This document shows, piece by piece, positions 1-21,481 of a DNA stretch of 24,264 nucleotides. A program made the position numbers and the translations under genes. The DNA lies in contig CAMLDR010000051.1 of the NCBI GenBank assembly GCA_946478775.1, forward strand, positions 1 to 24,264, written 5' to 3'. Origin of the DNA: an uncultured Flavobacteriales bacterium (GTDB lineage Bacteria > Bacteroidota > Bacteroidia > Flavobacteriales > Crocinitomicaceae). Under the pieces are notes generated by a model. It worked only from the letters and a program-made list of their open reading frames with translations, searched no databases and had not been told where the DNA came from. Position 1 is the stretch's first letter; every line of letters starts with the position of its first letter.

Positions 1-1859
1 CCTGCAACGGAACCTCCCCATCTGGTACAATGCGCGGCCATTTCAGGTGCAATTTGGTTTACCATACTATCCAGCAGGTTATTCATATACGGGCAAGAGA
101 AATGGGTGTTTACCAAATCAATGTATCTCGAAATATAGTATTGCTCTACCGTAGGATTTTCGTCAATCAATTTCTGAATAATATTTGTATGGCCCTGTCC
201 TCCCGGATTCGGAAGATTTTCTACGTTACAAGGATCCGCATTAGCACTCGGATCGGGAATACCGGTGAAATTGATGTAATGTCCGAAACAAGCATCCATA
301 TCCCAAAGAATATAGCGCCATTTCTTTTTGTCTCCATTCGGATCCATTCCACGCCACCAGCCGGTGTTCCAGTTCAACCAATCCTGGCTTACGATGTAAG
401 AATTGATTACGAAATAGTCGACCAAAGACTCCCAGTTTAACTGGCTGTCCACATACGTGAAACCAGGACCTGGACCCATATTATTGGTGTTGATGTAATT
501 TCTCAATGCGTTCCAGTCAGTCAATGCATTGGGCGCTCCATATTCTTCCCAGGTTCCGCCCCAGGTTTTCAAATATTGTAAGTTGAATTTATCCTGATCG
601 TAATAATGCTTGGTATAATCCGCATCGTCAATTTTTTCACGTAATTCGTAAACTCCCCAATACTGGCCGTTTAAATAAACAACACACGGTCTCCAGGTAC
701 GCTCATCCAGTTTCAGGTCTGCACGTTGGGATAAGGTATGTACAAATGCATCACGGATGTGAGCTCCACCTGTTTCAAACGGGTAATTATCACTTGCAGC
801 GGGTTTCAAAATCAAGCGCTGAAATTTATCGCGGTTCTCCGTTGGAAATATCTGATGTTCGATTTCATGATCGTATCCATACTGATCTCGCATAATAAAG
901 TCAAATCCTCTTTGCGGATAGGCCCAGGAATCATTTCCATGTTTGTTGAACTGACCTTCTCCCTTACCTGCAAAAGTCTCATCAGCTTCCCACAATTCAA
1001 AAAATCCCTGCGGTTCAATTTGGGTTCCTGCCAACAATGTTGCCACAGAATTGGGCCCGGCTCCTGCAATGGATACGATAGGAACGGTATGGTTCACATT
1101 GATAAAATAAGTTCCCGACATCGTGAAACTCGGTTGATCCGCTGAGAATGCTTTTGCACGCAAAACTCTGGTAGTAGTAATTGAAACCGGTCCGGAATAA
1201 AGTGTTGACGCTGCTGTAGGTTCGGAACCATCTATTGTATAACGAATTGTTGCCGACCCTAGCGGGCAAGTAATGGTAACGTTTTGTGTCGAAGCATAAA
1301 ATCCCGGTGTGATACTAAACACAGGTGTTGGAGTATAAAAGTTAATCCCTCCTGTATTCGACGCATTTGGCGTTGGTGTGGTGAAAAGTCTCCAGGTAGC
1401 AGCTCCATTTGTCTGACGACCGATAGAGTGATTTTGTTTGGTCATCTGAGTGAACTCAATGAAATCTACCGTAACGCCACCGGGATTAGTCAGAATAAAC
1501 CACTCATTCGAAGTTTGGGCCAGGTTAAAAGTAGGATGGATCTCATTTGCGGAGACGATCCCACGACCGCTGCAATAAATCATTTTATAACCTCCCGGAG
1601 CAATGGATGTAGATCCCGCAGGAATCTGCCACTTTTGCGGATTATTGTCATTATCTGACAAATAATAACCGGTTAGATCCACCGCGGCACCGCCGGCATT
1701 ATATAATTCGATCCAATCTTCCCGTTCTCCGAAAGCGTCCGTAGGACCATTGATATTTGAACAGGAATATTCATTGATTACGACCTGAGAGTTTACTGTG
1801 GAGGACAGCAAAATAAGGAACAGGAAACAAGCCGTTTTAAAGAGAGATAGCAATTTCAT
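1..1859 (-). CDS. Secreted lamin-tail / CotH-kinase family protein, partial (3' end outside window)
   Basis: Open from an ATG at 1859 through the left edge, giving at least 619 residues with no stop. Residues 1-24 form a signal peptide ending in NSQ. Residues about 25-135 read as a lamin-tail (LTD) domain (VVINEYSCSN, EDWIELYNAG, LTGYYLSDND, WFILTNPGG). Residues about 175-250 match a chitobiase/FN3-like domain (IRYTIDGSEPT around 210, then LYSGPV and LRAKAF). From about 290 on comes a CotH-like domain: LILKPAASDNYP, a VYLNGQYWGVYELREKID block, and WDMDACFG at 519-524, the position of the conserved Asp pair of CotH atypical kinases. Any C-terminal sorting domain would lie beyond the edge. Such proteins in Bacteroidota are usually exported to the surface; kinase activity here is inferred from the family only. 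It is divergent from the lipoprotein gene at 2041. Confidence 0.88.
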   Translation of the reverse strand, partial: MKLLSLFKTACFLFLILLSSTVNSQVVINEYSCSNINGPTDAFGEREDWIELYNAGGAAVDLTGYYLSDNDNNPQKWQIPAGSTSIAPGGYKMIYCSGRGIVSANEIHPTFNLAQTSNEWFILTNPGGVTVDFIEFTQMTKQNHSIGRQTNGAATWRLFTTPTPNASNTGGINFYTPTPVFSITPGFYASTQNVTITCPLGSATIRYTIDGSEPTAASTLYSGPVSITTTRVLRAKAFSADQPSFTMSGTYFINVNHTVPIVSIAGAGPNSVATLLAGTQIEPQGFFELWEADETFAGKGEGQFNKHGNDSWAYPQRGFDFIMRDQYGYDHEIEHQIFPTENRDKFQRLILKPAASDNYPFETGGAHIRDAFVHTLSQRADLKLDERTWRPCVVYLNGQYWGVYELREKIDDADYTKHYYDQDKFNLQYLKTWGGTWEEYGAPNALTDWNALRNYINTNNMGPGPGFTYVDSQLNWESLVDYFVINSYIVSQDWLNWNTGWWRGMDPNGDKKKWRYILWDMDACFGHYINFTGIPDPSANADPCNVENLPNPGGQGHTNIIQKLIDENPTVEQYYISRYIDLVNTHFSCPYMNNLLDSMVNQIAPEMAAHCTRWGGSVA

Positions 1860-2010
1860 GCGTAGTTTTCATTTAAAGAGTGTATAATTTTACGAATCTT
1901 TTATGTTATAATCCAAACACTAGACGTATTATTTCACGAAAAGTAGCCAGAAAGTTCATTTTTATTTTGTAATTCCTTATTATATCAGACTTATTTGAGT
2001 AAAATTCTCT

Positions 2011-3192: not shown

Positions 3193-3273
3193 TTGAAAAT
3201 GTAAAATGTAGAATTGAAAAGGTTTTTTAAACCGATTCTATCTTTTCAATTTTTTCATTCTCAATTTTCAATT
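3191..3273. terminator. Long imperfect inverted repeat between convergent genes, probable bidirectional terminator
   Basis: AATTGAAAAT at 3191-3200 is exactly complementary to ATTTTCAATT at 3264-3273. A second pair lies inside: AATTGAAAAG at 3212-3221 with CTTTTCAATT at 3242-3251. The centre, 3221-3233, has the small palindrome GGTTT-TTT-AAACC. The repeat fills the gap between the stops of the DUF2490 gene and rodA and overlaps the rodA stop. It is AT-rich, so it is not a textbook GC stem. Confidence 0.55.
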
Positions 3274-4669
3274 AAAAAAGCACGTCTCTGCGCTGACTGT
3301 CTAACTTCAGCAGGATAAACAGAAGCATAGAGAACGACATCAGGGAAGATCCTCCATAGCTAAAGAATGGCAATGGAATTCCGATTACCGGCGCCAATCC
3401 GATATTCATCCCGATATTGACCGCAAAGTGATAGAAGACGATCATTGCGACACAATAGGCATAAACCCTGTTGAAAGTGGAGCGCTGTCGTTCCGCAATG
3501 ACTATGACCCGGAACAGCATTCCCATGAACAGGCCTACAATGACCAAACTTCCCATGAAACCCCATTCTTCGGCAAGCGGACAAAAAATAAAATCTGTTT
3601 CACTTTCAGGAACGTGATTCGAGCGAACACTGGCTACACTGGCTTTCTTGTACCCTTTTCCAAATAGGCCTCCCGAACCTACGGCAGCCATTGCACGATT
3701 TCGGTTGTAATCTTTTCCGTCATCATCTTTACGCAAACCCAAAACCAATTCAATGCGGTCTTTCTGGTGCTGGGCCAAACTCGAAAAAGAGAAGTTAACG
3801 GTCGTTGAAACGGCAACAGATAAAAACCAGCCGGTAATAATGACCAAAAGCACCCTTCTTTGCTCGCGTTTGGAAGAAACCCAGCGCAGGATCAAGTAAG
3901 CAATCAAAGCAATAACCGTAATCACCGTAATTACCCCGTAAAATCCGGGGATCAATACTCCGCGCATGAAGGTAAATTCATACTTGTTACTGCTCATTAA
4001 AAGCGTAATGATCGAAAGAAAAACCACGTAGAATAAAATCGGGATGAAGTGACTACCCACCCAGGTTTCTTTGAAGCGAACACCCGGAATCAAATTCACC
4101 ACTTTCAATACCAAAGGATCGAAAGTGATTCCCTCACGATACAAAACGAAGAAAAAGGAAGTAAAAACCACAAACGTTCCCGCATCAGGCTGAAGGAGGA
4201 TCATTACCATCGGAACGATGACAATCGCTAATGCCACCAATACTGTCTGCACATTCTGGTTCTTTACGTTAACCGTTGAAACATAACGAGAAAGAGCGAT
4301 GGCCGTTCCGATCTTCATGAATTCGGCGGGCTGAATTCCCATGGTACCGATTCCAAGCCAGGCACGTGCACCGTTAATTGGTGGTGTGAAAAGAACCACG
4401 ATCAGCAGGGAAAAGCAAAACAGGTAAATGGGTATTGCAAATTTCCGGTAAATGTCCGAATCTATCAGGAAAACAAGGAATCCAAGGAAAATGGAGATTC
4501 CAACCCACATGATCTGCTTGCCGTATTTCTGTGAAAAGTCAAAAATATTCGGATGGTCCGGATCGTAAGCTGCAGAATAGACATTGGCGATCCCCATACC
4601 CAACATAATGACTACTATTGAAAGTAACCACCAGTCTACGTGTTGTGTAAGTGAATCTTCTCTTCTCAT
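3272..4669 (-). CDS. rodA: RodA, peptidoglycan glycosyltransferase of the SEDS family
   Basis: 465 residues, polytopic, about ten hydrophobic segments. SEDS proteins polymerise lipid II into glycan strands with their partner PBP2 in the lateral-wall elongasome. SEDS signatures are clear: GARAWLGIGTMGIQPAEFMKI early in the protein, the loop HQKDRIELVLG followed by AMAAVGSGGLFGKG, VPESETDFIFCPLAEEWGF, and the C-terminal GIPLPFFSYGGSSL. It is longer than E. coli RodA (370 residues). The extra length is an inserted membrane region in the middle, around residues 190-290, as is common in Bacteroidetes homologues. It lies 45 nt downstream of mrdA and is last in the mre/mrd run, closed by an inverted repeat. 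Confidence 0.95.
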   Translation of the reverse strand: MRREDSLTQHVDWWLLSIVVIMLGMGIANVYSAAYDPDHPNIFDFSQKYGKQIMWVGISIFLGFLVFLIDSDIYRKFAIPIYLFCFSLLIVVLFTPPINGARAWLGIGTMGIQPAEFMKIGTAIALSRYVSTVNVKNQNVQTVLVALAIVIVPMVMILLQPDAGTFVVFTSFFFVLYREGITFDPLVLKVVNLIPGVRFKETWVGSHFIPILFYVVFLSIITLLMSSNKYEFTFMRGVLIPGFYGVITVITVIALIAYLILRWVSSKREQRRVLLVIITGWFLSVAVSTTVNFSFSSLAQHQKDRIELVLGLRKDDDGKDYNRNRAMAAVGSGGLFGKGYKKASVASVRSNHVPESETDFIFCPLAEEWGFMGSLVIVGLFMGMLFRVIVIAERQRSTFNRVYAYCVAMIVFYHFAVNIGMNIGLAPVIGIPLPFFSYGGSSLMSFSMLLFILLKLDSQRRDVLF

Positions 4670-4714
4670 TTATTCTTTCTTAGCCGCTAATCTCAACCTC
4701 TACTGAATGAAATC

Positions 4715-6598
4715 CTAGGGCTTTCTCTTCATAGGTCTGGCTTTAATATTCAACAGATTCGCATTAACGATCATCTGCTCTTTAGCTTTATCCTTTACTT
4801 TTCTGTGAATGTATTTCTCCATCATTAAGCTGGCAGTTGGAGCAGCCCAAACACCTCCGAATCCGGCATTTTCAATGAAAACTGCAATTGCAATTTTAGG
4901 GTTTTCCATCGGGGCAAATGCAATGAATACCGAGTGATCTTCTCCGTGCGGGTTCTGTGCTGTCCCGGTTTTTCCGCAAACCGTCATTCCCTCTACCTGC
5001 GATCTTTTTGCAGTACCTCCCGGTTCGTAAACCGCTCTTCGCATCCCTTCTATAATCGGATCGAAATTTGCTGCGTCTACTTTTGTTCTGTGGATCTTTT
5101 TGAACTGTGGAAGTGGACCTTTATTCCCGATTGACCGCACGAAATGCGGTGTGTAATACCATCCTTTGTTTGCAATAATTGCAGCAATATTTGCCATTTG
5201 CAGCGGGGTTACTTTCACCTCTCCCTGTCCGATTGAAATGGAACGGATGGTAGAAAATGCCCAGGTATTGTGGCCGTACCATTTGTCGTAGTAAGCTGAA
5301 TTCGGGATTAAACCCGGACGCATTCCCGTTACGTCTGTATCAAACTGACTTCCCAGGCCAAAACTCATGATGTAATCATACCAGTTATTCAAACCGATCT
5401 CTGCATCTGCAAAAACAGATCTTTTCTTTCCCTGCTGGATGATGCGGCGCATGACGTAATAAAAGTACGGATTACAAGAGTGTTTAATCCCATCCGGTAA
5501 ATTGGATGCGCTTGCATGGTCGTGGCAACCCACCATGGATTTGGTGCATGGAAATCCCGATTCGGGAGTAATGACCCCTTCCTGCAAACCAATCAATGAT
5601 TGAAGCAGTTTAAAAATCGATCCCGGAGGATATTCAGCCGCCAAAGGCCGTGGATACAACGGTTTTCCTTCGTCAAGCAATAATTTGGGATAATTCTTCC
5701 CGATATTTCTTCGGCCCACCAGAATATTCGGGTCAAAACTAGGAGCAGAGACCAATGCGAGGATTTCTCCCGTTTTCGGTTCAATTGCAACGATACATCC
5801 CCGTTTGTTCTGCATCAGTTTTTCTCCGTAAACCTGAAGCTGGATATCTAATCCTAAATGCAGTGCCGGACCTTGTTCCGCAAGGGTATCATACTTTCCT
5901 CCCGCATAAGATTCAATGGCATTATTCAAAGCAGAAGTTACAATGTACTTGATTCCTTTTCGACCACGGAGTTCCTTTTCATAGTAGCGCTCAATTCCTG
6001 CACGTCCAATTTGATCACCTCCCCGATAAAAGCGGTCTTCCTCTACTTCTTCGCGTGAAACTTCGTTCAGGTAACCGAAAATATTTGCTCCTCCCGCATA
6101 GGGATAGCTTCTCATGGAAGTCAGATCTTCACGAAAACCTGGGAATCTTTCCAAATGCGGAGCAATGCGGGTAATTTCATCAATGGTCAATTCCTTGATA
6201 AAAGGATATTCACGCTGGGGCTGATAGTTATCCTGTAATTTTCCGGTGCTCCGGTTGCGGTACTGTCCTTCTCCTTTTTTAATCTGATAGAAACGATCTT
6301 TTACTTCCTGAGGGGTCATCTCAACCAACCTGGCGAATGCAGCCGTATCAAAATCATGAATATCCTCTTCCTTCATCATCAGATTATAGTAACTTCTGTT
6401 CGTTACTACTTTCTTATTGCGTCTGTCAAAAACAATTCCCCTCGGCGGAGTAATTTCTTTTCGTTTCTCGGCAATTTCCTGCGCCCGCAATTTCCAGGAA
6501 TCATCTACTACCTGCATGAAGAACAGGCGAATCAAATAAATGGATCCGACCAGGATAAAAAACACCAGGATGACATATTTTCTTCCATCCAGATTCAT
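4715..6598 (-). CDS. mrdA: Penicillin-binding protein 2, elongasome transpeptidase
   Basis: 627 residues. PBP2 cross-links lateral-wall peptidoglycan together with RodA. One N-terminal membrane helix (residues about 8-28) is followed by a dimerisation region with PPRGIVFDRR at 51-60. The transpeptidase domain has the three active-site motifs: SIFK at 327-330 (nucleophile Ser327), SCN at 374-376 and KTGT at 543-546. The Phe/Ile form SIFK replaces the commoner STFK but keeps Ser and Lys. The start ATG overlaps the mreD stop by four bases (ATGA), indicating translational coupling. Length and motif order are normal for class B PBPs. Confidence 0.95.
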   Translation of the reverse strand: MNLDGRKYVILVFFILVGSIYLIRLFFMQVVDDSWKLRAQEIAEKRKEITPPRGIVFDRRNKKVVTNRSYYNLMMKEEDIHDFDTAAFARLVEMTPQEVKDRFYQIKKGEGQYRNRSTGKLQDNYQPQREYPFIKELTIDEITRIAPHLERFPGFREDLTSMRSYPYAGGANIFGYLNEVSREEVEEDRFYRGGDQIGRAGIERYYEKELRGRKGIKYIVTSALNNAIESYAGGKYDTLAEQGPALHLGLDIQLQVYGEKLMQNKRGCIVAIEPKTGEILALVSAPSFDPNILVGRRNIGKNYPKLLLDEGKPLYPRPLAAEYPPGSIFKLLQSLIGLQEGVITPESGFPCTKSMVGCHDHASASNLPDGIKHSCNPYFYYVMRRIIQQGKKRSVFADAEIGLNNWYDYIMSFGLGSQFDTDVTGMRPGLIPNSAYYDKWYGHNTWAFSTIRSISIGQGEVKVTPLQMANIAAIIANKGWYYTPHFVRSIGNKGPLPQFKKIHRTKVDAANFDPIIEGMRRAVYEPGGTAKRSQVEGMTVCGKTGTAQNPHGEDHSVFIAFAPMENPKIAIAVFIENAGFGGVWAAPTASLMMEKYIHRKVKDKAKEQMIVNANLLNIKARPMKRKP

Positions 6599-7113
6599 CG
6601 AACTGCCTTTTTATTAGAAATGAAAATAAATTGTACTAATAAACTTAATAAAAAAGAACTGGGTACACTTAGTCCGATCTTAATTAAGATCCAAACAAAC
6701 TCATTCAGCTTGAAAGATTCAATAGAAAAGAACCATACGTGGTGGATCAATAACAGGGTTCCATAGGAATAAAGAAACCACCGGCCACCCATGGAATAAA
6801 CGTTCACGGATTCCACACTGTCATACCCATCCCTGGGTGAAAGCCATTTGAAGATCAACGGACGGAAAAAAGCCATAATTACCGCACTGGATGCATGCAG
6901 TCCGAAAGTATTGGAAAAGGAATCAATAATTAGTCCGAAAGCGAAGCTTATGAGCATCAGCGGCACCGTTCCCATTTGAAAAGGCAGCATCAGAATGAAC
7001 ATCGGATAGATCATGGCATACAACCCCAATCCCGGTTCCAAATTATTCAATATCAGTACCTGGAATAGTACAAATAATACAAAACGAATGCTATTTAAAA
7101 CAAAAATATTCAC
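6595..7113 (-). CDS. mreD: MreD, rod-shape determining membrane protein
   Basis: 172 residues, strongly hydrophobic, with five to six predicted membrane segments, as expected for MreD, a membrane partner of MreC in the elongasome. The start codon is GTG, directly after the mreC stop (TAA-GTG). The next in-frame ATG lies about 33 codons downstream, beyond the first membrane segment. Seven bases before the GTG lies AGGAGGA (7121-7127), a strong Shine-Dalgarno match embedded in the Glu-rich C-terminal codons of mreC, which is notable in a phylum that seldom uses such sites. Identification rests on hydropathy, size and position between mreC and mrdA; MreD sequences diverge strongly. Confidence 0.88.
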   Translation of the reverse strand: MNIFVLNSIRFVLFVLFQVLILNNLEPGLGLYAMIYPMFILMLPFQMGTVPLMLISFAFGLIIDSFSNTFGLHASSAVIMAFFRPLIFKWLSPRDGYDSVESVNVYSMGGRWFLYSYGTLLLIHHVWFFSIESFKLNEFVWILIKIGLSVPSSFLLSLLVQFIFISNKKAVR

Positions 7114-7962
7114 TTAGATCTCCTCCTCTTCTTTGTCAGCTGGAATTTTCCCTTCCAATTCTCTCAATTCATCCAGCTTGATATTCTTGATCACGTAAAC
7201 GTGCTGGATCGTTCTAAAATCTTCTGCAATCCGAACCTGAAGGTCCCACAAAGGTTTTCCTTCGATGGATTTGCGTTTGGTAATGACTCCGACCGGAATT
7301 CCTTTCGGAAACATTCGTGAACCTCCGCGTGTAATTACTTTGGTGAATTTTTTAATGGTAATATCGTTTGAAATCCCTGAAATCTGGCAAATTTTTGGGT
7401 TTACTGCATCCCACTTCAGCAACCCGAAAGCACCGCCGTCACGCATGCTGACATCAAAGTTGATGTTTTTGGACAGAATGGTTTTTACAACTGCGTAAGA
7501 TTCTCCAACCAAATGGACCACTCCTACAACCCCTTTGGAAGAAGCCACTCCCCATCCTTTTTTAATGCCGTGATTTTTACCAATATCAATGGTCATGTAA
7601 TTGTTTCGCTTGTCGTAGGTATTATTAATGACTGTTGCTGCGATATACAAATACTGCTGCTGATAACTGGTGTCTTCAATGATAATTTTTTCGCGATCGA
7701 TCTTATAGTTGGAAAGTTTCAATTTTTCACGCAATCGGGCATTTTCCAATTGCAATTTCCGGTTAGTCTCAGCCAGGTTGAAATGTTTTGTTACCGAATA
7801 ACGCACTTCATACAACCCTGCGTTTATTCTTGAAGCACTGGAAAAAACCTGTAGTCTGGCAAACTGAGAATATTGGACATACGCAGAAAGTGCTACTATT
7901 TGGAGTAACACAAAGACCAAAAAGATCTGAAATCGTTTGAAAAAAGCAATCAAATTGCGCAT
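7114..7962 (-). CDS. mreC: MreC, rod-shape determining protein
   Basis: 282 residues. A single membrane helix at about 12-30 is followed by a coiled-coil region (about 60-85, TNRKLQLENARLREKLKL) and then the MreC beta domains, with YIAATVINN, NYMTIDIGKNHGIKKGWGV, and GVVGVVHLVGESYAVVKTIL. The typical role is a periplasmic scaffold that activates PBP2/RodA. The C terminus is acidic (KEEEEI). It heads the mreC-mreD-mrdA-rodA run. The gene just upstream encodes a predicted outer-membrane protein rather than MreB, which normally precedes MreC; mreB is not anywhere in this window. Confidence 0.93.
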   Translation of the reverse strand: MRNLIAFFKRFQIFLVFVLLQIVALSAYVQYSQFARLQVFSSASRINAGLYEVRYSVTKHFNLAETNRKLQLENARLREKLKLSNYKIDREKIIIEDTSYQQQYLYIAATVINNTYDKRNNYMTIDIGKNHGIKKGWGVASSKGVVGVVHLVGESYAVVKTILSKNINFDVSMRDGGAFGLLKWDAVNPKICQISGISNDITIKKFTKVITRGGSRMFPKGIPVGVITKRKSIEGKPLWDLQVRIAEDFRTIQHVYVIKNIKLDELRELEGKIPADKEEEEI

Positions 7963-13017: not shown

Positions 13018-14142
13018 ATGCGCATCGGAATAAACACTCGTTTCTTACTGTCTTCCAAAATGGAAGGTTTTGGCTGGTACACTTACGAAGTAGTGAAACG
13101 CATGGTGGAAGCTCATCCGGAACATGAATTCGTATTCTTTTTTGACCGGCCGTTCGATGAAAAATTTGTCTTCGCTAAGAATGTGACTCCGGTAGTACTT
13201 TTTCCTCCTGCCCGGCATCCGGTCCTGTTCGTTTGGTGGTTTGAATATTCAATCAAACGCGCATTGCGGAAATATCAAATCGATCTTTTTTATTCACCCG
13301 ACGGATATTTGTCGCTCCGCTCCCCGGTACCGCAGGTTGGAGTGATCCACGATCTGAATTTCGAACACCACCCGGAAGACATTCCTGCAAGTCCACTGAG
13401 GTATTTGCGCAAATACTTTCCGAAATTTGCCAAAAAGGCAGATCATATCCTCACAGTTTCCGAGTATTCCAAACAGGATATTATCCAATCTTATGGCATT
13501 TCACCTTCCAAAATAACGGTTGCGTGGAATGGGGCTTCTGAGTCATTTGTTGCCCTGGACGCGAAAGAAATCAGTGAAATCCGGGCAGCAAAAACATCCG
13601 GCAGACCTTATTTTATTTTTGTGGGGGCTATTCATCCCCGAAAAAATGTGGGACGGTTAATCGAAGCATTCGGGAAATTTGCCGAAGTAAATCCGGATAT
13701 CGATTTATTGATTGTCGGTGAAAGTCTGTGGGCAAACACCGCCTCTTCCATTCCGGAAGTTTCCGAAGCATTGAAAAAACGCATTCTTTTTTCCGGTCAT
13801 GTTTCTTTAGCAGAATTAACTAAATTGATGGGCGCTGCTTTTGCCTTAACCTACATTCCTTATTTTGAAGGATTCGGTATTCCACTCGTTGAAGCTATGC
13901 GCTGCGGACTTCCGATCATTTCCGGAAATCGAACTTGTTTGCCGGAAGTAGCAGGAGAAGCTGCCATTTACGTCGACCCGTTTAACGTGGAAGAAGTTTC
14001 AAAAGCAATGATCTACCTGGCTTCAGACGAACAAAAGCAAGCGGAACTCGCTCAAAAAAGTCTGGAACGTGCGGGTTTATTTTCCTGGAATTATACTGCG
14101 GAAGCTACCTGGAACGTTCTGGAAGAAATAGTGAAGAGATGA
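13018..14142 (+). CDS. Family 4 glycosyltransferase (GT-B fold)
   Basis: 374 residues. It is a retaining nucleotide-sugar glycosyltransferase acting in the cytoplasm or at the inner membrane face. The N-terminal half has MRIGINTRFLL and a Gly-rich acceptor loop near 15-21. The C-terminal half carries FVGAIHPRKNVGRLIEAF at about 201-218, LLIVGES, and the EX7E nucleotide-sugar motif from Glu284 to Glu292 (EGFGIPLVEA). TCLPEVAGEAAIYVDP follows at 307-321. The layout matches mannosyl/rhamnosyl-type GT4 proteins. Its last four bases overlap the start of the GH114-like gene (ATGA at 14139-14142), so the two are made together. Donor and acceptor are unknown. Confidence 0.92.
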   Translation: MRIGINTRFLLSSKMEGFGWYTYEVVKRMVEAHPEHEFVFFFDRPFDEKFVFAKNVTPVVLFPPARHPVLFVWWFEYSIKRALRKYQIDLFYSPDGYLSLRSPVPQVGVIHDLNFEHHPEDIPASPLRYLRKYFPKFAKKADHILTVSEYSKQDIIQSYGISPSKITVAWNGASESFVALDAKEISEIRAAKTSGRPYFIFVGAIHPRKNVGRLIEAFGKFAEVNPDIDLLIVGESLWANTASSIPEVSEALKKRILFSGHVSLAELTKLMGAAFALTYIPYFEGFGIPLVEAMRCGLPIISGNRTCLPEVAGEAAIYVDPFNVEEVSKAMIYLASDEQKQAELAQKSLERAGLFSWNYTAEATWNVLEEIVKR

Positions 14143-15077
14143 GAAAAGGATTTTTATTCGTTTTGATTGCCTGCTGTGGATTTGCCTGCAAGGAGAAGAA
14201 AACCGTGAAAGCCGGTGTCAGAATGCAGGATTTCGTCATTTCGATCAGCAATTATGCCCGTGCTCAAGACCCGGATTTCATCCTGATTCCGCAGAACGGT
14301 GAAGAAATTCTCTTTGAAGACATTGATCCGGATAAAGGACTGAGGCCGGATCTGATCCAGGCGATCGACGGATATGGCGCGGAAGAATTATTTTTCAACG
14401 GAGTGTATGCTCCGGACAATTATCGTCTGGGAATGCTTCGGAAAGTCAACACTTCCCTGAAGGTCCTGGCAGCAGACTATTTGAACAATGATTCCGATAC
14501 AACACAGTTATTTCAGTTAGCGGATGCAGAACAGTTCATTGCTTTTCCAAGGAATAGTGCAAACTACAATTATAAATTTGTTCCAAATGTGGTGCATCAT
14601 GAAAACAGCAATGATATCCACACTCTGGCACAAGCACAAAATTACCTGTATTTTATCAGTTCAGAAGATCTTCCTGACAAAGCGGCTTTTCTTTCCGTTA
14701 TTCAGCATACCAATTTCGATGTGGTGATTATTGATGCATTTTATAACGATGCGTTGTTAACTTCAGCAGAAGTTGCCAGTTTGAAGACTAAATTAAACGG
14801 AGGAAAACGACTAGTGATCGCTTATATGAGTATCGGTTCGGCTGAAAAATACCGATACTACTGGAAAAAGGATTGGGGATTGCATCATCCGCTTTGGCTG
14901 AAGAAAAAATACGAAGGTTACGAAGAGGAGTACTGGGTGAAATTCTGGAAAGACGAATGGCAGGAAATCATTTACGGGAATGATGATTCTTACACCAAAA
15001 AATTATTGAATGCCGGTTTCGATGGGGCGTATTTGGATAATATCGAAGGGTTTTACTTTCTTTATCACAAAGATTAG
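14139..15077 (+). CDS. GH114/TM1410-like (polygalactosaminidase-type) lipoprotein with circularly permuted motif order
   Basis: 312 residues. A short leader ends in a Cys-rich stretch (ACCGFAC, Cys17 the likely lipidated residue; LIAC ends at Cys12 but would leave a very short signal). The family barrel motifs are present but rotated. First comes DFVISISNYARAQDPDFILIPQNGEEIL (31-58), then AEELFFNG (81-88), VLAADY (109-114) and AFPRNS (135-140). Only then come NYLYFIS (168-174), FDVVIIDAFYND (193-204), VIAYMSIGSAEKYRYYW (226-242), YWVKFWKDEWQEII (265-278) and finally GFDGAYLDNIEGF (293-305), near the end. In TM1410 the second group is N-terminal and the first C-terminal. Known family members act on alpha-1,4-galactosamine polymers; activity here is inferred only. 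It is coupled to the GT4 gene. Confidence 0.82.
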   Translation: MRKGFLFVLIACCGFACKEKKTVKAGVRMQDFVISISNYARAQDPDFILIPQNGEEILFEDIDPDKGLRPDLIQAIDGYGAEELFFNGVYAPDNYRLGMLRKVNTSLKVLAADYLNNDSDTTQLFQLADAEQFIAFPRNSANYNYKFVPNVVHHENSNDIHTLAQAQNYLYFISSEDLPDKAAFLSVIQHTNFDVVIIDAFYNDALLTSAEVASLKTKLNGGKRLVIAYMSIGSAEKYRYYWKKDWGLHHPLWLKKKYEGYEEEYWVKFWKDEWQEIIYGNDDSYTKKLLNAGFDGAYLDNIEGFYFLYHKD

Positions 15078-15159
15078 AAATTAGTTGCAGGTACGCAATT
15101 AATCGGGATATATGTATTATTCGCACCCAACCTTGTATAGGATACAAAAACAATTATTT

Positions 15160-15317
15160 ACCGCAAATACGCAAATGTTTGAGGCGCTTACCAGTCGCCT
15201 CCGTATCGTATAAATAGTATTAATCAATGCTTATTTGGTTCAAAAGCGAGTGCGGTGCGCCTATGCTGAAGCTTCAGCGTAAGCATTAGCCGAGCCAATA
15301 ATTTGTGTATTTGTGGT
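15160..15317. repeat. Structured 158-bp non-coding element with inverted ends (MITE/REP-like)
   Basis: The left end ACCGCAAATACGCAAAT (15160-15176) and the right end ATTTGTGTATTTGTGGT (15301-15317) are inverted copies matching at 15 of 17 bases. Inside are GAGGCG...CGCCTC (15181-15186 / 15196-15201), AATGCTTA...TAAGCATT (15226-15233 / 15280-15287) and a perfect 14-bp palindrome GCTGAAGCTTCAGC (15265-15278). There is no ORF of note. It fills most of the 292-bp gap between two convergent genes and may act as a bidirectional terminator or be a mobile repeat; multiple genomic copies would be expected in the second case. Confidence 0.55.
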
Positions 15318-15369
15318 GAAAAATTAAGTCTGGGTGTCAATTGTGATTAATCCCCAATTAATCGCGTGC

Positions 15370-19172: not shown

Positions 19173-19279
19173 CACTTAGGTATGTCAGAGCTTTTACTTT
19201 ACCCATTCCTTCATATGGTGTCGGCCCTATGCAACCAGACCCGATTGTTTCGAGTCTAAAATCTGAAAATCAGAGAACT

Positions 19280-21481
19280 ATGAAAACGCTTTTATTCCTG
19301 CTTACCATACTTGCAACACAAACCACACTGGCCCAGTCCGGAAATTGCGGATCGGATCCAATACAGGATTACCTGCGGCAACATTTCCCGGGATACACTG
19401 AAAAAGAGAATCAAAACAATCAGCTTCTCTATGATTACTTAACCTCCGATTTAGTGAATCAACAAGAAAAAACTACCTATACTATTCCGATCGTATTTCA
19501 CATCATGCACCAAAACGGACCTGAGAATATTTCGGATGCGACCGTGATCCAGGCAGTAGATGAATTGAATCAACGGTTTCAAAATTCGGGTCAATTTTTC
19601 GATGCAACCGGTCATGAGGTGGCTATTCAATTCTGTTTGGCATCGGTTGATCCGTGGGGGAATCCAACAAACGGAATTACACACGATTATTCTTCGATTC
19701 TAACCCTCAATTATTACAATTATGTTCAGGATTGGACTTTCAAAACACAAAACAGATGGAACCCGCTTTTATACCTGAACGTTTGGACTGTTGGACACAT
19801 CGCCACGGACCCGTTCCAAAACCCTTTGGGTGTGGGTGGTTACGCTACTTTTCCTGGCGGATCGATAGAGATAGATGGAATTGTTGGGCGTTACAATTTT
19901 TTCTTATCAAGTTTACTTGCTCATGAAGTCGGGCATTATCTGAACCTCTATCATACGTTCCATTCCTGTACCAACCTCAATTGCTTATTGGATGGTGACC
20001 GCGTTTGTGACACTCCGCCCGACGGTTCAAACGACAATACAGTGTGCCAGGGAAATTCCTGTAACACCGAAATGAGCGATACTTCCGGCTTCAATCCGTT
20101 TACCGGAGATGTGGTAGACCTGCCAAATTACATGGACTACACTTCTTGCCCATTATCGTTTTCACAAGGACAAGCAGATAGAATGCTTGCAGCTCTTACG
20201 CAGTTACGTCCCACTTTATTGCAATCGAACGGGTGTGGAATGAATCCCGGGGCACCTGTGCCAATTGCTTCATTTACTATCGATTCCTCCTTTTGTAAAG
20301 GAACCGGGAAATACGGATTTGAATCTACCGGCACGAATGGTTTGTATGCTGCATGGGATTTTGACGGAAACGGAAGTATTGATACGGTTGGTCAGCAAGT
20401 AGTGCATCGGTTTACCACTTCCGGAACTTATGCAGTTAAATTGTACCTGAGCGGTTACGGCGGATCAGACACATTAACTCAATGGATTTCTGTATTTGTT
20501 GCACCGCCCCACTATCCGATTTCAGCAACTTCGATTGGGACTACAATAGATCCTATCCTGAATGTTCCATATGCTTGTATTGGCTCGCAGATAACGTTAA
20601 TGGGCGCTCCCGGAATGAGCAGTTATTCGTGGAGCACCGGTAACACCACACAGAATGCCACCTTTACGATAGATACTACAACAGAGGTTTCATTAACCGT
20701 TACCACACCGTCCGGTCAAACGCTGACTTCCTGCCAGAATTTTAGAATTGGCGTAAATCCACGGATCCATTTGCAATTTGAGGCGGGCTCCGACACCGTC
20801 AATTGCGGCGATTTGGTGACCCTGAGATGGTACCCGATCCCATACTGGTTTCCTGCTACCAATACCTGGTATAGAAATGGAAATTGGTATTCCGCGAATC
20901 AAACGGTATTGGGGAGTTATGGAACTCCTCCGGGAGATCAGGCTGTTTGGGTAGAGAATAATGTGGATCCGATCGGGTGTCAAACCGACAGTGATACGAT
21001 CTATTATTTCGTTCATGACTCTGAACCGGTTCAATTACTTTTCGATGGAACTACTCTGAAAACAAGTTACGATTGTTTGTCAAATATGTGGTACAAAGAT
21101 GGTGTTCTTTTGACTAATCAACCGGATAGTGTTCTGGTTGTGCTGCAAAACGGATGCTATTGCTGCGCATGCACCACTTGTAAATACATGATGACAGACA
21201 CCATTTGTATTACGAATCTTGGAGTGAGCGATTTTGCTGAAACAACCATTGAAGTTTTCCCGAATCCATTTTCGGAAACTTTGAACATTCGCTTTTCCAA
21301 AGAACAGCATAGCACTTCGGTTGAGTTACTGGATCCTTCAGGGAAGTTGGTACGTGAAGTAAAAATCAACGGGAAAGAACTTTCACTGAAACGCGAGGGA
21401 TTAGCTTTGGGAGTTTATTTCATTCACATTTACAATGAAAGCACCCATTTAAACGAAACCCGATTTATATTGATTGAATAA
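19280..21481 (+). CDS. Secreted M43-type metalloprotease with PKD domain and T9SS C-terminal signal
   Basis: 733 residues from ATG 19280, where MKTLLFLLTILATQTTLAQ is a signal peptide; an ATG at 19229 would add 17 residues ahead of it. The propeptide precedes a metalloprotease domain with the zinc motif HEVGHYLNLYH (215-225; His215, Glu216, His219, His225) and the Met-turn sequence LPNYMDYTSC. This fits pappalysin/cytophagalysin-type proteases of family M43. A PKD-like domain (AAWDFDGNGSIDTV, HRFTTSGTYAVKLYL) and Ig-like modules follow. The end (IEVFPNPFSETLNIRF, LVREV, LALGVYFIHIYN) is a type A T9SS sorting domain, directing export through the type IX system. A Cys cluster (CYCCACTTC) precedes it. 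It degrades proteins outside the cell. Confidence 0.92.
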   Translation: MKTLLFLLTILATQTTLAQSGNCGSDPIQDYLRQHFPGYTEKENQNNQLLYDYLTSDLVNQQEKTTYTIPIVFHIMHQNGPENISDATVIQAVDELNQRFQNSGQFFDATGHEVAIQFCLASVDPWGNPTNGITHDYSSILTLNYYNYVQDWTFKTQNRWNPLLYLNVWTVGHIATDPFQNPLGVGGYATFPGGSIEIDGIVGRYNFFLSSLLAHEVGHYLNLYHTFHSCTNLNCLLDGDRVCDTPPDGSNDNTVCQGNSCNTEMSDTSGFNPFTGDVVDLPNYMDYTSCPLSFSQGQADRMLAALTQLRPTLLQSNGCGMNPGAPVPIASFTIDSSFCKGTGKYGFESTGTNGLYAAWDFDGNGSIDTVGQQVVHRFTTSGTYAVKLYLSGYGGSDTLTQWISVFVAPPHYPISATSIGTTIDPILNVPYACIGSQITLMGAPGMSSYSWSTGNTTQNATFTIDTTTEVSLTVTTPSGQTLTSCQNFRIGVNPRIHLQFEAGSDTVNCGDLVTLRWYPIPYWFPATNTWYRNGNWYSANQTVLGSYGTPPGDQAVWVENNVDPIGCQTDSDTIYYFVHDSEPVQLLFDGTTLKTSYDCLSNMWYKDGVLLTNQPDSVLVVLQNGCYCCACTTCKYMMTDTICITNLGVSDFAETTIEVFPNPFSETLNIRFSKEQHSTSVELLDPSGKLVREVKINGKELSLKREGLALGVYFIHIYNESTHLNETRFILIE

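Follow-up and report, generated by a model that had tools for sequence, protein, structure and literature searches.

Does the gene at positions 14139..15077 (+ strand) of the DNA analysed here encode a glycosidase-type barrel whose halves have truly changed places, and what would such a protein act on? The DNA, hereafter the window, is a stretch of 24,264 nucleotides from an uncultured Flavobacteriales bacterium (Crocinitomicaceae; contig CAMLDR010000051.1). The gene (P0001) is an uninterrupted frame of 312 codons and a stop, and its product matches proteins of the GH191 family in swapped order. GH191, which includes TM1410 (TmGH191) and Env-GH191, was proposed in 2025 as distinct from GH114, according to the accessible part of PMC12054363. 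We consider it probable that the window protein is a naturally permuted GH191-type (beta/alpha)8 barrel, and most likely a retaining galactosaminidase with a predicted activity on a polymer of the Pel kind.

Swapped order of the barrel halves

A phmmer search of Protein Data Bank chains (E up to 10) returned four sequences, three of TM1410 and one of Env-GH191, and all of them matched in two swapped stretches, at E-values of 5.3e-26 to 8.3e-26 for the TM1410 chains and 2.8e-17 for the Env-GH191 chain 9ep5. In the TM1410 chain 2aam, residues 19-149 correspond to residues 165-307 of the window protein (64.0 bits) and residues 161-257 to 25-123 (32.1 bits), while in 9ep5 residues 50-158 correspond to 185-303 and 178-269 to 28-129. 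BLASTP against a linear relative (P0121) gave the same picture. Residues 188-307 aligned to 51-165 and residues 24-136 to 181-304, again swapped, with the two segments at E 1e-18 and 3e-16 and the next best at E 2.5.

The ancestral second half, with alpha4 and beta5-beta8, now comes first (residues 29-140; 14223..14558, +; matching 2aam 161-257). It is followed by a linker between the old C and N termini (residues 141-167; 14559..14639, +), placed there by its position between the two matched halves, and by the ancestral first half, with beta1-beta4 and a three-stranded insertion after beta3 (residues 168-305; 14640..15053, +; matching 2aam 19-149). Each half is present once, and both halves of one parent domain, once each and in exchanged order, make a circular permutation. 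An earlier note on this DNA had proposed a true permutation, neither a fusion nor a truncation, with the halves at residues 31-140 and 168-305; the chain matches and the rotation results below bear out both the claim and the limits.

Rotating the protein, that is joining residues 168-312 to 29-167, merged the matches. The TIGR01370 score rose from 141.8 bits in two stretches (best stretch, residues 163-306 to profile 42-173) to 149.5 bits in a single one (profile 56-282 of 315). Likewise, PF03537 rose from 54.5 bits, above its cut-off of 27 (best stretch, residues 192-305 to profile 16-118), to 66.1 bits in a single stretch (profile 16-220 of 231). Mature proteins were also rotated step by step against a hidden Markov model (HMM) built from 40 linear relatives, taking the best single-domain score. 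The window protein went from 88.4 to 153.0 bits, peaking when the chain began at residue 168; any start between 123 and 186 came within 3 bits of the maximum. All 20 permuted relatives sampled from 98 peaked at start residues 129 to 183, gaining at least 34 bits in 18 cases and about 2 bits in two (L028 and L079). The same scan of 12 linear Env-like proteins, drawn from 120, gave no gain above 1 bit.

The AlphaFold2 model of the window protein is a confident barrel (pLDDT 89.7, pTM 0.87). Neither result which the earlier note had named as fatal, a native order collinear with the family or a prediction without a closed barrel, was obtained. The strands of the model lie at residues 48-52, 78-88 and 108-115 in the N-terminal half, with short bridges at 134-138 (DSSP), and at 169-172, 195-199, 225-231 and 296-300 in the C-terminal half. 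The insertion after beta3, with predicted elements at 225-231, 234-236, 254-257 and 264-267, parallels that of a linear relative's model. In the model, the fold is complete despite the new termini. A fusion or truncation was ruled out by the single copy of each half and the complete model.

Structure searches repeated the half-wise picture. All 11 Foldseek hits of the permuted model below E 0.001 were GH191 chains, aligned over 145-146 columns, i.e. half a chain, whereas a linear control modelled in the same way matched at full length (289-292 columns). Identity over the matched half was 29% to TmGH191 and 26% to Env-GH191. The linear control also matched 6oj1 and 9ep6, which were absent among the Foldseek rows listed for the permuted model. 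VIA-align of the model gave no GH191 chain among the 50 rows listed; as this aligner, as far as known, follows chain order, the result says nothing against kinship.

Among known families, GH191 (TmGH191: 2aam, 9eux, 9euz; Env-GH191: 9ep5) is the closest. It has the same set of strands, the same insertion after beta3 and the same Asp and Glu positions, but its chains run from beta1 to beta8, whereas the window protein runs alpha4-beta5..beta8-beta1..beta4. GH114 (Ega3, 6oj1; FsGH114, 9ep6; PF03537) has the same barrel type, yet is linear in order and less similar to the window protein than GH191. The earlier note described the protein as GH114/TM1410-like; PF03537 passes its cut-off, but the nearest characterised family is GH191 and not GH114. 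The window protein shares with GH191 sequence similarity, the insertion after beta3 as modelled, and the catalytic Asp and Glu, and differs in strand order, which is why we do not call it an ordinary GH191. In the other features that were compared it looks, and should work, like one. GH166, the hydrolase domain of PelA (5tcb), is a Pel-hydrolysing barrel with a related catalytic pair, as given in the accessible part of PMC12054363, but it is linear, lies within the larger PelA protein and gave no match in the phmmer search of Protein Data Bank chains.

A family of permuted proteins

The permutation is a family-wide trait rather than a feature of one odd protein. A protein search returned 993 proteins below E 1e-3, and all 120 listed, the window's own included, have the PQN motif ahead of the LD motif. 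A profile scan of genome contigs found 311 relatives, of which 80 were kept. Bacteroidota titles were carried by 76 of these loci, the others being a Treponema (L064), a record titled Glaciecola (L005) and two uncultured bacteria (L067, L080). When every frame in the examined loci was scored with a rotated-order HMM (E at most 1e-4), 113 frames, encoding 102 distinct proteins, were swapped, eight frames (six distinct) gave one collinear span, and one short frame in L036 matched a single half only. A swapped match was present in all 80 loci, and as these come from different records, an assembly or frameshift artefact was rejected. Homologues with the same order, which the earlier note had suggested looking for, are thus numerous.

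Linear relatives also exist. Thirty loci obtained by a TIGR01370 match comprised 24 swapped and six linear ones. For a linear Bacteroidota protein (L089), 120 of 120 listed relatives (of 1293) were collinear, and the same was true for 120 of 120 listed relatives of Env-GH191 (of 422). One genome (G373) carries two linear genes, which are separate and 2 kb apart, and so are not a fused tandem duplicate of the kind expected as an intermediate of permutation.

The permuted proteins fall into two subfamilies, I, which includes the window protein, and II (L091-L112). In trees built from rotated sequences they stayed together. In a tree of 100 rows, 39 permuted rows lay on one side of a branch with a Shimodaira-Hasegawa-like approximate likelihood ratio (SH-aLRT) of 99; in one of 89 rows, from which distant paralogues of the Pel clusters were left out, the 39 stayed together at SH-aLRT 100; and in one of 53 rows, 27 permuted rows shared a branch with ultrafast bootstrap (UFBoot) and SH-aLRT values of 100/98. 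Subfamily II does not form a clear clade (51/85 in the 53-row tree). The simplest reading of these trees would be a single origin of the permutation. Among 118 Treponemataceae genomes, two have a permuted gene (L064, L131) and one a linear gene, which suggests a transfer between phyla; the two permuted genes are probably due to horizontal transfer or to misbinning.

To our knowledge, only a few glycosidase barrels have been circularly permuted in nature. The GH70 glucansucrases, which are permuted GH13 enzymes, are such a case, but they belong to an unrelated family, have a different cut point and are large multidomain enzymes. The permutation here belongs to a whole conserved family and is a natural experiment on how well a TIM barrel copes with chain ends placed next to its nucleophile. 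It also matters for annotation, since models that depend on chain order see the permuted family in halves. Databases name its members polygalactosaminidase or, in many cases in one source, cysteinyl-tRNA synthetase, which we take to be an old misannotation of the TM1410 family. In the open-licence PubMed Central literature, outside which most subscription papers lie, we found no description of a permuted GH114 or GH191, and the available text of PMC12054363 contains no word beginning with permut.

Putative catalytic pair, predicted substrate and the link to Pel

In TmGH191 the putative catalytic pair is Asp156 and Glu225, as stated in the accessible part of Roth et al. 2025 (PMC12054363). The distance between these residues is the same as that from the D of YLD to the E of VENLFY in the TM1410 chain, 69 residues, and on this basis the pair maps to D300 and E82 of the window protein. 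Conservation was read from 99 rows, the window protein and 98 permuted relatives, after four of the 102 distinct proteins, 290 amino acids or shorter, had been left out. D300 (15036..15038, +), 12 residues ahead of the C terminus, is D in 98 rows and a gap in the remaining one, and E82 (14382..14384, +) in the VENLFY motif is E in all 99. The catalytic Glu does not map to PQNGE, whose E55 column is E in only 19 rows; the neighbouring column E56 is E in 87.

The following mechanism is proposed. The ancestral chain would have been opened between beta4, which bears the nucleophile, and alpha4, with some 27 residues linking the old termini. The N terminus of the mature protein would then run directly into alpha4. 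The enzyme would be a retaining endo-alpha-1,4-(N-acetyl)galactosaminidase acting on a cationic polysaccharide of galactosamine (GalN) or N-acetylgalactosamine (GalNAc), presumably of the Pel kind. The attack on the anomeric carbon would come from D300, close to the C terminus, and the acid/base would be E82 of the N-terminal half, so that the catalytic pair would come from opposite halves of the re-ordered chain.

A link to Pel, a sticky polysaccharide of biofilms, is seen in the genomes. The PelG model PF16933 matched in only one of 395 Bacteroidota genomes and in one of 25 genomes from subfamily I loci, and seems blind to most Bacteroidota forms; therefore the PelF-type DUF3492 (PF11997) was used as marker. 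It was found in 26 of the 395 genomes. TIGR01370 matches occurred in 35, of which 24 have the gene in permuted form. PelF was present in 21 of the 24 genomes with a permuted gene versus 5 of the 371 without. The exceptions are G005, G053 and G343, with a permuted gene and no PelF found, and G019, G024, G251, G282 and G372, with PelF and no permuted gene found. By subfamily, PelF was found in 21 of 22 genomes with subfamily II and in neither of the two with subfamily I. In G138, G142 and G312 the permuted gene directly adjoins PelF, and 25 of the 26 PelF genomes, all but G138, have a weaker TIGR01370 match, collinear in order, no more than about 5 kb from PelF. Among the 25 genomes from subfamily I loci, nine have PelF, namely eight Flavobacterium and the Treponema (L064), in which PelF and PelG matches are on a different contig.

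The permuted family thereby pointed to Pel-like clusters of Bacteroidota that carry a linear GH114-like gene, the permuted enzyme often being elsewhere in the genome. Such clusters lie at L118 1-9191, L119 7194-16000, L124 1071-9499 and L126 2-9945. They contain a PelF-type DUF3492 glycosyltransferase, a multispan protein, a linear GH114-like protein of 268-284 amino acids beside it, which is the weaker collinear TIGR01370 match just mentioned, and a large membrane protein. Judged by eye, the multispan protein may be PelG. In G147, a PF16933 match lies at the place that corresponds to it, and the candidate at L118 6043-7647 has no Pfam match. A Pfam scan of L118 only also showed a DUF2194 protein in its cluster. 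In the open-licence PubMed Central literature, we found no paper on these clusters.

Several results weigh against a permuted galactosaminidase of the Pel kind. The TIGR01370 cut-off of 181.25 bits was missed by the native and the rotated protein alike, and for this reason we do not file the protein under that family. In the model, beta8 consists of mere short bridges by DSSP, and the loop around 241-260 is of low confidence. The p value for the co-occurrence with PelF (Fisher, 3e-27) ignores kinship among genomes. PF11997 was not found in 16 of the 25 subfamily I genomes, those of Fluviicola included, so that Pel is no explanation for this gene in the lineage of the window. Finally, TmGH191 neither binds nor cleaves galactosaminogalactan (GAG), as reported in the accessible part of PMC12054363.

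The last two results, together with the overlap of the window gene with an unrelated GT4-type gene, are consistent with a permuted GH191-type hydrolase whose substrate is not a GalN polymer but another polysaccharide of the envelope or the environment. We regard this as a serious but unlikely alternative, since subfamilies I and II share an invariant catalytic pair and many invariant groove residues, and subfamily II goes with PelF almost throughout. Env-GH191 is reported to cleave Pel (PMC12054363, accessible part). If the window protein is a galactosaminidase, as we prefer, its substrate in the Fluviicola-type lineage could come from another organism, or be a GalN-containing polymer of the cell's own that differs from Pel.

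A permuted but inactive polysaccharide binder, for example a surface lectin, appears improbable. The nucleophile is so close to the C terminus that a free end could disturb it, and no permuted member has a known activity; still, D300 and E82 are kept in every filled row, and a binding role would not need them. Half-barrels paired between two chains as a swapped dimer, or a fusion of two half-barrel pieces, would be compatible with the sequence order alone, but we give them hardly any credence in view of the single halves and the complete model.

Probable membrane anchor and genomic surroundings

The protein begins with a hydrophobic signal sequence ending at Cys17 (residues 1-17; 14139..14189, +), read from the sequence as a probable lipobox, and an aligned Cys is present in many relatives. 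The window protein is probably lipid-anchored through Cys17. A crude lipobox pattern was found in 75 of 98 permuted, 67 of 120 TM1410-like and 46 of 120 Env-like proteins. Of the 98 permuted proteins, 66 have their last Cys before alpha4 at a distance of 11-14 residues, and 20 have no Cys there. The signal for export of Bacteroidota lipoproteins to the surface is an acidic stretch behind the Cys; in the window protein Cys17 is followed by KEKKT, of which one residue is acidic. The surface location named in the earlier note is no more than a possibility.

The linear GH191 lipoproteins carry their anchor ahead of beta1, on the bottom side of the barrel, save for four Env-like rows with the pattern behind that point, whereas in the permuted proteins it lies ahead of alpha4, on a short tether. 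The geometry of beta/alpha barrels places the start of alpha4 on the catalytic face and that of beta1 on the other side. The barrel should therefore be turned over relative to the membrane. It is tempting to speculate that the permutation flipped the enzyme so that its groove faces the membrane, where it could trim a GalN polymer leaving the cell, and that this orientation was selected. We find this doubtful, but if true, permutation would be a natural way of re-aiming an enzyme.

Upstream, the GT4-type glycosyltransferase gene (13018..14142, +; PF00534 92.5 bits, PF13439 71.3 bits) ends within the barrel gene, whose first 4 bases it shares. A homologue was found in 9 of the 80 loci; in L001, L002, L003 and L005 it directly adjoins the barrel gene or overlaps it. 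No neighbourhood is broadly conserved, the commonest neighbour cluster apart from the barrel gene occurring in 18 of the 80 loci, and the window's flanking genes are closest to those of Fluviicola-type loci. Near the barrel gene are GalE, an FkbM methyltransferase, an acyltransferase and, by eye, a flippase-like protein with no NCBIfam match. These neighbours hint at a role in the synthesis or trimming of a surface polysaccharide. In the record titled Glaciecola amylolytica (L005, CP034120.1), the genes that flank the barrel gene share 77-93% identity with those of the window and of Fluviicola loci, and its title or genome is probably mislabelled.

Behind the barrel gene, an intergenic segment (15150-15325) has long terminal inverted repeats and a predicted fold of -65 kcal/mol (z -5.0); a second copy was not found in the window or the fetched loci, and it is possibly a small mobile or repeat element. 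Further along, 19229-21481 (+) encodes a metalloproteinase-like protein with a type A sorting domain of the type IX secretion system (T9SS), as expected in Bacteroidota. On the opposite strand, 3272-7962 (-), near sugar genes, presumably holds a cell-shape cluster (RodA, PBP2, MreD and MreC, by eye), and a long frame at 3-1868 (-), which runs past the window edge, looks by eye like a secreted protein with a CotH-like part.
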